Shown here: in pieces, positions 59,424-64,000 of the stretch | Layout of the letters: each line of letters opens with the position of its first letter | Numbering within the stretch: the stretch's first letter is position 1 | Source: Halothiobacillus sp. | GTDB taxonomy: Bacteria; Pseudomonadota; Gammaproteobacteria; Halothiobacillales; Halothiobacillaceae | Direction of reading: 5' to 3' | NCBI GenBank assembly: GCA_023255735.1 | Contig: JAGDVP010000005.1 | Location: forward strand, 27,761-91,760 | Length of the DNA stretch: 64,000 nt | The notes under the pieces: model-generated | What the model saw: only the letters and a program-made list of their open reading frames with translations | Databases searched by the model: none | Told to the model about the DNA's origin: nothing | Translations under genes and position numbers: made by a program

Positions 59424-61847
59424 ATGACCGCATTTAAGTACATCCGTTTTTTCAGTAAATTAGGCATTGATGATGTGCCCTTGGTGGGCGGAAAAAATGC
59501 CTCGCTGGGCGAAATGTATCAAAAGCTCGCGCCCCAGGGTGTGCGCATTCCCAACGGGTTTGCGATTACGGCCGAGGCTTATCGGTATATGTTAGATGCT
59601 GCCAACGCTTGGCCGGCACTCCATGCGGTGCTGGATGATTTTGATGCCGATGATGTGGCCGATTTGGCGCGGCGCGGCAAGCGGGCACGCGATATTGTGT
59701 ATGGCGCGGGTTTGCCCGCTGATTTGGCCGCAGAAATTATTGCCGCCTACCGCCTGCTGCAACAAGAATATGGCGATGAGGTGGGGTTGGCGGTGCGCAG
59801 TTCAGCCACGGCCGAAGATTTACCGACCGCCAGCTTTGCCGGTCAGCAAGATACGTTTTTAAATGTTCGCGGCGATGACAATTTACTGGATGCCTGCCGG
59901 CGTGATTTTGCAAGTTTGTTTACCGATCGGGCGATTCATTATCGGCTGGATCAAGGATTCGATCATTTCAAAATTGGGCTTTCCATTGGCGTGATGAAGA
60001 TGGTGCGTTCAGATTTATCCGCCTCGGGGGTTATGTTTTCACTGGATACCGAATCGGGGTTCCGTGATGTTGTGTTTATTACGGGCAGTTATGGTTTGGG
60101 TGAAAATGTGGTGCAGGGTGCGGTTGACCCGGACGAATTTTATGTGCATAAGCCGACGTTTACGGCCGGTCATCGCTGCGTGTTGCGGCGAAGCTTGGGC
60201 AGCAAAGCCATCAAAATGGTGTATTTAGAGGGCGAAACCCGTAACACCACGCGCAATATCCCAACACCCGCGGCGGATAGCGCCCGATTTTGCATCACCG
60301 ATGCCGATGTGATGGAACTGGCCGATTATGCGCTCACCATAGAGCAGCATTACGATCGCCCGATGGATATGGAATGGGCGAAAGATGGGTTGGATGGCAA
60401 AATTTATATTGTGCAGGCTCGGCCTGAAACGGTGGCCTCGCAGCGGCAAGCCAATGTACTCGAAAGTCATGTGCTGGAGGGTACCGGCGCGGTCATTAGT
60501 ACCGGGCGTTCGGTTGGTGAGAAAATCGCCACAGGGCGAGCGCGGGTGATTCTTGACGTGGCACACTTAAATGAATTTAAAGCCGGTGAGATTTTAGTGG
60601 CCGACATCACCACCCCCGATTGGGAACCGGTAATGAAAAATGCGGCCGCCATCGTCACCAATCGCGGCGGGCGGACGTGTCATGCTGCCATTATTGCCCG
60701 TGAGTTGGGCATTCCCGCCGTGGTGGGCGCGGGCAATGCAACGAGTGCCATTCATGATGGTAGCCTCGTCACGGTTTCTTGCGCGGAGGGCGATACGGGG
60801 CGCATTTATGAAGGCGCCATACCGTTTCATGTTGAACGCACCGAGGTGGGCGATATGGCTCGCCCGGCAACGCAAATCATGCTGAATCTAGGTAATCCGG
60901 ATTTAGCCTTCAAAGCTTCTTTTTTGCCGAATGATGGCATTGGCCTTGCGCGCATGGAATTTATTATCAATGAATCGATTAAAGCTCACCCCATGGCGCT
61001 CATTCATCCTGATCGGGTCACGGATGCATCCCAACGCGCCGCGATCAACGCGCTTGTGCAAGGCTTTGAGAGTGGCGCTGCATTTTTTATTGAAAAGCTC
61101 TCAGAGGGTGTGGGCACCATTGCGGCGGCCTTTTGGCCTAAACCCGTGGTGGTACGGATGTCGGATTTTAAATCGAATGAATATGCCTCACTTCTGGGTG
61201 GCGAATTTTTCGAGCCGAACGAAGCTAACCCCATGATCGGCTTTCGGGGTGCCGCCCGCTATGCCCATCCAGCGTATGGGGACGGCTTCAAATTGGAGTG
61301 TTTAGCCATCAAACGCGTGCGGGAAGTGATGGGTTTGGTTAACGTGATTGTGATGCTGCCCTTTGTGCGTCGGGTTAAAGAAGCCGATGAGGTGCTCGCC
61401 AAAATGGCTGAGTTTGGGCTCAAACGCGGCGCGCAAGGCTTGCAGGTGTATGCCATGTGCGAAATTCCCAATAACGTGATTTTGATTGATCAATTCGCCC
61501 AGCGTTTTGACGGCTTCTCTATTGGCACTAATGACTTAACCCAGCTCACCTTGGGCGTTGACCGCGATAGTGAGCAGGTGGCCTTTGATTATGACGAGCG
61601 CGATGAGGGGGTTAAGGCCTTGATTAAACTCGCCGTTGAGGGCTGCGCACGCAATGGCATTCATTCGGGTTTATGCGGGCAAGCGCCGTCGGACTATCCC
61701 GAAATGGCCGAGTTTTTGGTCGATATTGGCATTGAATCCATGAGTTTGAACCCTGATACCGTGATTGCCACCACCCGCCATGTCTTGGCGATTGAATCTC
61801 GCCTTAAACGGGCGCCGCGCGATTCAGATACCATACGGCCGCATTGA
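59424..61847 (+). CDS. ppsA: Phosphoenolpyruvate synthase
   Basis: An 807 aa enzyme that converts pyruvate and ATP to PEP, AMP and phosphate, a key gluconeogenic step in autotrophs. The N-terminal ATP-grasp region is VGGKNASLGEMYQKL and RSSATAEDLPTASFAGQQDT. The phospho-His domain has GGRTCHAAIIARELGIPAVVG, and the C-terminal PEP-binding barrel has GLCGQAPSDYPE with the active-site Cys. ATG 59424 with AGGAG at eight bases is chosen over the earlier codon. It is divergent from minD and its last 44 bp overlap the convergent tspO. Confidence 0.96.
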   Translation: MTAFKYIRFFSKLGIDDVPLVGGKNASLGEMYQKLAPQGVRIPNGFAITAEAYRYMLDAANAWPALHAVLDDFDADDVADLARRGKRARDIVYGAGLPADLAAEIIAAYRLLQQEYGDEVGLAVRSSATAEDLPTASFAGQQDTFLNVRGDDNLLDACRRDFASLFTDRAIHYRLDQGFDHFKIGLSIGVMKMVRSDLSASGVMFSLDTESGFRDVVFITGSYGLGENVVQGAVDPDEFYVHKPTFTAGHRCVLRRSLGSKAIKMVYLEGETRNTTRNIPTPAADSARFCITDADVMELADYALTIEQHYDRPMDMEWAKDGLDGKIYIVQARPETVASQRQANVLESHVLEGTGAVISTGRSVGEKIATGRARVILDVAHLNEFKAGEILVADITTPDWEPVMKNAAAIVTNRGGRTCHAAIIARELGIPAVVGAGNATSAIHDGSLVTVSCAEGDTGRIYEGAIPFHVERTEVGDMARPATQIMLNLGNPDLAFKASFLPNDGIGLARMEFIINESIKAHPMALIHPDRVTDASQRAAINALVQGFESGAAFFIEKLSEGVGTIAAAFWPKPVVVRMSDFKSNEYASLLGGEFFEPNEANPMIGFRGAARYAHPAYGDGFKLECLAIKRVREVMGLVNVIVMLPFVRRVKEADEVLAKMAEFGLKRGAQGLQVYAMCEIPNNVILIDQFAQRFDGFSIGTNDLTQLTLGVDRDSEQVAFDYDERDEGVKALIKLAVEGCARNGIHSGLCGQAPSDYPEMAEFLVDIGIESMSLNPDTVIATTRHVLAIESRLKRAPRDSDTIRPH

Positions 61848-62268
61848 GATACAGCGCGATAAATAGCCACACAAGATAGGGTACAAGCAACAGCCCCGCC
61901 CAAAAATTCAAGGGGAAAAAAACCATGGTGGTTAGGGCGACAAGGACAATCAGCAGCAATAAATCCAAGAGGGCGCCGAGTATGGCTCGGCGGCCAAAAA
62001 ATAGCCAAGACCAAGCCGCATTCGCGCCCAATTGCGCTGCATAAAGCAGCAATCCCACTGTTCGCGCGGGCGAATCAACCGTGATAAATATCAAGGCAGC
62101 CGCAATGGCCATCATGACGTAAAGCGCGGTCCACACCACCGGAAACACCCACGGCGGCGGCAAGCCGAGCGGTTTGGCTAAACCGGCATACCACGCATCG
62201 GGGCGAAATCGCCCGCCGGTCACGGCTGCCACAGAGGTAATTAGTATACTGATTATAAAAGTAAGCAT
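61804..62268 (-). CDS. tspO: TspO/MBR family tryptophan-rich sensory protein
   Basis: A 154 aa five-helix membrane protein. The family marks are WYAGLAKPLGLPPPWVFPVVWTALYVMMAIAA near residue 26-57, NAAWSWLFFGRRA, and VPYLVWLFIALYLNAAVWYLN at the end. Bacterial TspO binds porphyrins and is tied to tetrapyrrole, light and stress regulation. Its stop lies inside the last codons of ppsA on the other strand. Confidence 0.9.
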   Translation of the reverse strand: MLTFIISILITSVAAVTGGRFRPDAWYAGLAKPLGLPPPWVFPVVWTALYVMMAIAAALIFITVDSPARTVGLLLYAAQLGANAAWSWLFFGRRAILGALLDLLLLIVLVALTTMVFFPLNFWAGLLLVPYLVWLFIALYLNAAVWYLNRAAPV

Positions 62269-62814
62269 TTAACCCCATCTCTTTGAAGCTTTGTTGCATG
62301 ACTTTGAGAATAACACACCCCCTTATTAGATGAAGTTGTCGTGAATGAATCTGCCGGGTTTGCATACTAGGCGGCTGTATTCAACCAAATAACCGTCGAC
62401 ACAAAAATTCTTACCCCATCCCAGCACGCATGCAGGTATCACTGTCTGGCGCCCTGTGATGAGGTTCCTTAATCTATTTAATGGATTCAGCGCTAACACC
62501 TCATGCCACGGATGGCATTTAATTTAAGTCTGGTTAATTTAAATCTAAGAGATGCCGCAACCTTTTTGCGCAATTTTGTGCCGTTTGCAAAAGCTGTGGC
62601 AAGAGGTGGATGTTTTCCTGCGATTTATGGGCGCGCTGATGAATCTCTTAAATAGTATAAATTTTGCTGGGATTAACTGGTAAAATACTTGTTGTCAAAA
62701 AATAGCCGCATCAATGCAACCAACCAACTCGCACCCGCAGCAAGCGGTTTTTATTTAAGTGTCTGACGACATCGAGTTTTTTATTTTGAGTCGTCCTAAG
62801 TGTGGAGCCCATAG
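62269..62814. other. 546 bp intergenic region between tspO and bcsA
   Basis: The longest gene-free stretch in the window. The part near bcsA is AT-rich and may hold its promoter, although no clear -35/-10 pair could be fixed. An ATCAC...GTGAT inverted repeat with a 13-base loop containing GGCGCC lies at about 62437-62460. No c-di-GMP riboswitch pattern, tRNA or open reading frame was seen. Confidence 0.4.
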
Positions 62815-63963
62815 ATGCTTGATTTAGCCAAGCGTCGTGAGATCAGAATTGTTTTCGCTTTAATCGGCGTGCTCCTTGGTATCGGGGGGTTTTTCGCCTT
62901 AGCGAGCGTACCCACTACTTTAGTCACGCAACAATTGCTCGCGGTTTTTTTATTGGGTGCGATGACCGCGGGGTATTTGATTTCGCGCCGGCTACCCAAG
63001 CATCACCCCATTGAGCCTTGGCTTAAACTAACCGTGATTCTCACCAGCGCTTTTTTAGGTTGGCACTATCTTTATTGGCGAGCAACCGAAACCCTCCCCT
63101 TAAGCTTTGGCCTTGTCTCTATGATTGCGCGGCTGCTGCTTTTTTTGGTTGAAGTCTATGGCTTCATTACGCTCATGTTTGGCCATTTTATTAACATCTC
63201 GCCCAATGAGCGCCGCCCTGTGCCTTTGCCCGCCGATACTCGCCTTTGGCCGACGGTAGATATTTTTATCCCGACCTATAACGAGGATATTTTGGTGATT
63301 CGCCCCACCGTGATTGCCGCGACCCAAATGCGCTACGCGCCGGGTAAATTTAAGGTGTGGATATTAGATGATGGCGGTACGGTGCAAAAATGCACCGATC
63401 CTAACCCGGAAAAAGCCGCCGCCGCCCAAGCACGCCAAGCGGATTTAAAGGCATTGGCTGCCGCGTTTGGCGCTGGGTATTTAACCCGCGAGAAAAACCT
63501 GCATGCCAAGGCGGGCAATCTCAATTCCGCCTTGGGTTTTACGGACGGCGATTTAGTGGCAATTCTCGATTGCGACCACATCCCTGCCGATGATTTTTTG
63601 CTCAACACGGCCGGCGCTTTTTTGGTGGAGGAAAAGCTGTTTTTGCTGCAAACCCCGCATAATTTTATTTCAGCCGATCCGGTGGAAAAAAACCTCAATA
63701 TTTACGGCAAAATCCCCTCTGAAAATGAGTTGTTTTATCGTGTGATGCAACCGGGGCTGGATTTTTGGCACACCTCATTTTTTTGTGGCTCGGCGGCCGT
63801 GTTACGCCGCAGCGTTTTAAATGAATTGGGGGGTATTGCTGGCCAAACCATTACCGAAGATGCCGAAACCACCCTAGATGCCTTATCGTTGGGGTACACC
63901 ACAGCATATTTGAATATCCCGATGGTTATGGTGGACCCCTTAGTCAAGACAATAATGCATTGA
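62815..63963 (+). pseudogene. bcsA: Cellulose synthase catalytic subunit BcsA, truncated (probably by an IS)
   Basis: The N-terminal half of BcsA, 382 aa versus the usual 700-870. Two pairs of membrane helices precede the GT2 core: IFIPTYNEDILVIRPTV, WILDDGGTVQKC, AILDCDHIPADDFLL and TITEDAETTLDALSLGY. The reading matches BcsA up to AYLNIPMV and then runs VDPLVKTIMH to a stop. The QxxRW motif, the later membrane helices and the PilZ c-di-GMP domain are missing. GGAG lies ahead of the ATG. The downstream sequence starts like an insertion-sequence end, so the gene is most likely interrupted rather than naturally short. Confidence 0.82.
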
Positions 63964-64000
63964 GTTTAAGAGGGTAACCTTTCATATGCAGCGGAACGGC
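63932..64000. mobile_element. Probable left end of an insertion sequence inside bcsA
   Basis: The sequence TGGACCCCTTAGTCAAGACA begins exactly where BcsA similarity ends and resembles IS3-type terminal repeats as I remember them. A possible start codon at 63986 (reading MQRNG) could begin a transposase, but only five codons are visible. The family and boundaries cannot be confirmed from this window. Confidence 0.5.

Follow-up and report, generated by a model that had tools for sequence, protein, structure and literature searches.

The locus considered here raises the question of whether a Halothiobacillus genome that carries genes for cellulose synthesis should be counted as that of a cellulose producer, as the frame of the bcsA gene at the right end of the analyzed window (the whole stretch of 64,000 nucleotides, G000:C23:27761-91760) loses its similarity to BcsA after the motif NIPMV. 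We propose, with a probability of about 0.95, that an IS3-family insertion sequence (IS) inserted into bcsA and split the gene, and that the locus is a null allele for cellulose synthesis.

The two parts of bcsA lie on different contigs

The following features define the interrupted gene:

62815..63963, plus strand: 5' part of bcsA, an open frame of 382 amino acids, native BcsA up to 63926, then an element-derived tail and stop
63924..63926, no strand: target-site duplication GGT, whose other copy is the first 3 bases of bcsA beside the left end of the element, near C5:36811
G000:C5:35776-36810, minus strand: remainder of bcsA, at the end of contig C5

The 382-residue frame matches positions 8-355 of the 714 in the TIGR03030 profile (E 3e-139), after which the similarity ends; the residues that follow the motif NIPMV (MVDPLVKTIMH, with the stop at 63961-63963) are non-BcsA. 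The end of the window coincides with the end of the contig (C23:91760) and the remaining part of bcsA is hence not visible within it. An earlier reading of the DNA made from its letters alone (henceforth the sequence-only reading) had placed the break in similarity after NIPMV and had remarked that the QxxRW motif and the PilZ part do not follow in the window; the profile match agrees with it on the first point, and on the second both elements of the protein are encoded on C5, past the IS, rather than in one open frame with the N-terminal half of BcsA.

On its reverse strand C5 opens with the left end of the element (...GGGGTCCACTATA), directly after which comes GGTATCGGGGCTGCAACCC, encoding SGLQPETYSGLVIQRVRW, with PilZ following later. 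The two parts together cover TIGR03030, from 8 to 355 on C23 and from 355 to 701 on C5. When the flanks are joined and one GGT is counted, the bcsA frame runs over 745 codons, and its product is identical to that of the intact bcsA of another Halothiobacillus (G003) at 609 of 737 aligned positions; the DNA over the junction is 86% identical to that of G003 across 299 bp, with no gap. The point of insertion is thereby located between the TED motif and QxxRW. The sequence-only reading had suggested looking for an in-frame remainder of bcsA and for a short target duplication, and both were recovered, the former on another contig and the latter as GGT on both sides of the element. The letters alone would also permit TAT as a 3-bp duplication; we rejected this, as the frame then stays wrong and the result does not fit the relatives.

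The interrupting element is a multi-copy insertion sequence

The right end of the element is represented in the window by two overlapping features:

63927..64000, minus strand: right end of the element, the last 74 bases of the window, cut by the contig end
63927..63939, plus strand: right terminal inverted repeat TATGGTGGACCCC

The sequence-only reading had let the foreign DNA begin at 63932 (TGGACCCC) and had likened it to an IS terminus. The nature of the terminus was recognized correctly, and its exact position needs to be moved to 63927 (TATGGTGGACCCC), a boundary that we prefer because 13 bases of TATGGTGGACCCC recur at other copies and fit the GGT at 63924-63926. The anticipated matching inverted repeat is found at the left end on C5, where TATAGTGGACCCC is identical to TATGGTGGACCCC at 12 of 13 positions. 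Such short imperfect terminal repeats are typical of the IS3 family, as are target duplications of 3-4 bp, here GGT at bcsA and CAAC at a second site in a TonB-dependent receptor gene (see below); duplications of this length are on record for the IS3-family element IS6110 (PMC5896891).

The element's initial 55 bases have exact repeats at two contig ends, the start of C7 and the end of C1, and all 74 bases of the right end recur inside C21 with 97% identity. Beyond the terminus, the C21 copy leads into an IS3-type orfB at its 3' end, with the direct reading SLGYITPDQVYRTASGGGAKISDKYG. This tail, which is the only part of orfB assembled in that copy, is 53% identical (E 4e-10) to the orfB at L065 in a genome of the same family, which in turn is an IS3-family transposase by NCBIfam NF033516 (E 1e-76) that also has the rve (DDE) domain. 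Sulfuriferula multivorans possesses a decayed homologue, 1222 bp in length and with both ends, and the same IS terminus is also seen in the genus member G004. Searches of the genome itself with PF00665 and NF033516 returned only other, partial transposases and not the transposase body of the bcsA copy; plasmid and phage records gave no matches in a DNA search with 230 bp of the right-end region. The expectation of a transposase is accordingly answered in part, by the tail of orfB in C21, the body of the bcsA copy being unassembled. From the orientation of orfB in C21, the element is probably antisense to bcsA, as its orfB would run on the minus strand in the direction of this end. Being multi-copy, the element is also where the assembly broke, and the window ends there in consequence.

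Taken together, the inverted ends, the 3- and 4-bp duplications and an orfB tail homologous to an rve-bearing IS3 orfB support assignment of the interrupting element to the IS3 family (NF033516; IS911, IS6110). We see no difference between that family and the element, which has no name of its own, in a comparison where the bcsA copy is known by its ends and its body is not assembled.

Other copies, and whether the two halves belong together

A TonB-dependent receptor gene is broken by a second copy: C18 ends with the 5' part of this gene (L061) and C7 opens with its 3' part (L008). The copy is flanked by the 4-bp duplication CAAC and the joined frame measures 746 codons. These features bear on the reading under which the cell has intact bcsA halves that assembly wrongly joined to a repeat. 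In favor of such an artefact, all the junctions do lie at contig ends, and the contig ends share 55-base overlaps. A chance misjoin, however, would not yield a matching 3-bp duplication, element ends that are correct and opposite on the two halves, and an empty site free of gaps, and the copy in the TonB-receptor gene repeats the same features with a duplication of its own; we regard an artefact as extremely unlikely.

Another element (GGTAATCCCCCCGAAAACTAG...) has in turn cut the C21 copy (L007, 1-60). The terminus of this other element is seen at six more contig ends or sites of the genome, and G006 has a similar end (L017) near an IS3-type integrase frame. In light of this, nested material may also be present between the two element ends at bcsA. 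Two further ends of the bcsA-interrupting IS, at the end of C1 (L009) and the start of C23 (L060), have flanks without a common target duplication; a pairing of both as the termini of a single copy was considered and discarded on that ground, and we take them to reflect other copies that are unassembled or rearranged.

The same two ends imply that some rearrangement or some unassembled copies exist, and one could accordingly imagine that recombination between IS copies has parted the halves of bcsA, which would no longer be neighbors. Gene order speaks to this point, with two genes ahead of bcsA serving as synteny anchors:

59424..61847, plus strand: ppsA-like phosphoenolpyruvate synthase gene, upstream of bcsA
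61804..62268, minus strand: tspO-like gene, upstream of bcsA, whose counterpart adjoins moxR in G005

G005 has minD, ppsA, tspO, moxR and ycaO in this order, and in G007 ppsA, moxR and ycaO are likewise close, in both cases with no bcs genes between. In the source genome C23 carries ppsA and tspO immediately ahead of bcsA, and on C5 bcsZ is followed by moxR and ycaO. The bcs operon thus interrupts an otherwise conserved order, which makes C23 and C5 neighbors and provides support independent of the junction. The common GGT duplication and this conserved flanking order fit one simple insertion, such that a rearrangement seems very improbable, and bcsA would be broken under it too. The operon sits here between tspO and moxR (from window 62268-62815) and is missing from that site in both G005 and G007. 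Across the genus Halothiobacillus, the distribution of bcs genes is patchy.

We therefore return to a simple insertion. The claim of the sequence-only reading that an IS broke bcsA holds: the assembly contains the insertion with both gene halves, its inverted ends, the target duplication and a terminus in several copies. As to its course, an IS3-family element, with a relative of 1222 bp in Sulfuriferula, transposed into bcsA between the TED and QxxRW codons, duplicating GGT and coming to lie antisense to the gene. The BcsA frame now ends after 370-371 native residues and a short tail, and the element stands between the first part of the operon and the codons for QxxRW, the membrane segments that come later and PilZ, together with bcsB-bcsS-bcsZ.

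Consequences for cellulose synthesis

The truncated product of 382 amino acids retains the membrane segments of the N-terminus and the greater part of the glycosyltransferase core; QxxRW, PilZ and the membrane segments further on are gone. From established knowledge of BcsA, such a product would be inactive. Enzyme activity and with it cellulose synthesis from the bcs locus would then very probably be lost. In the rest of the operon bcsB and bcsZ have intact frames, and bcsS (PF17036; L043 on G000:C5, 12764-13481, minus strand) is frameshifted near position 33130 of C5, having 2 bases fewer than the intact copies in G003 and G005. Unless it is an assembly error, this frameshift points to a decaying operon. 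Among the relatives, the bcsA frame of G006 (L029, G006:C1:1641275-1643320) is open over 1530 codons and looks like a natural bcsA-bcsB fusion; in G005 (L068, G005:C21:1-6000) there is a bcsA 3' end only, at a contig start, the 5' part not being found in that assembly.

The sequence-only reading had also entertained phase variation through precise exit of the element. At an appreciable rate, such exit would restore bcsA and turn cellulose on and off in the population. With a clean 3-bp duplication exact excision would indeed restore the frame, as is true of any simple insertion, and IS492, in the eps locus of Pseudomonas atlantica, is a documented example of an IS that inserts reversibly at a polysaccharide locus, according to the work cited in PMC5493358. 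That case shares with ours an IS in an exopolysaccharide locus; precise excision from one hotspot is, in the account cited there, a feature of IS492, and no excision was seen in the Halothiobacillus assembly. Against phase variation stand the copy-out-paste-in transposition described for the IS3-family elements IS911 and IS6110 (PMC5896891), the frameshift in bcsS of the same operon, which speaks for loss, and the presence of the element at other, unrelated sites, so that there is no single hotspot. The idea found no support, and we consider it highly improbable that insertion of the IS3-type element into bcsA can be undone in nature and serves as a cellulose switch in Halothiobacillus.

Inactivation of cellulose production by an IS is already known in other bacteria, and the present locus is a further instance with another genus and another IS. 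In Komagataeibacter, IS1031 insertions are associated with the cellulose-negative state (PMC6559022). A mobile element is associated with loss of cellulose production in both; here, in contrast, the IS and host genus are different, the insertion lies in bcsA itself and it comes from a genome assembly, whereas the Komagataeibacter case is a laboratory mutant. We view the locus as a clear but ordinary gene inactivation, by a mobile element of a common type, that opens no new question of mechanism. Its consequence is a corrected annotation, in that the two bcsA fragments of this genome are one interrupted gene and the genome is not to be counted as that of a cellulose producer merely by its bcs genes; it also adds to the natural examples of exopolysaccharide loci inactivated by an IS, in a genus with a patchy bcs operon.
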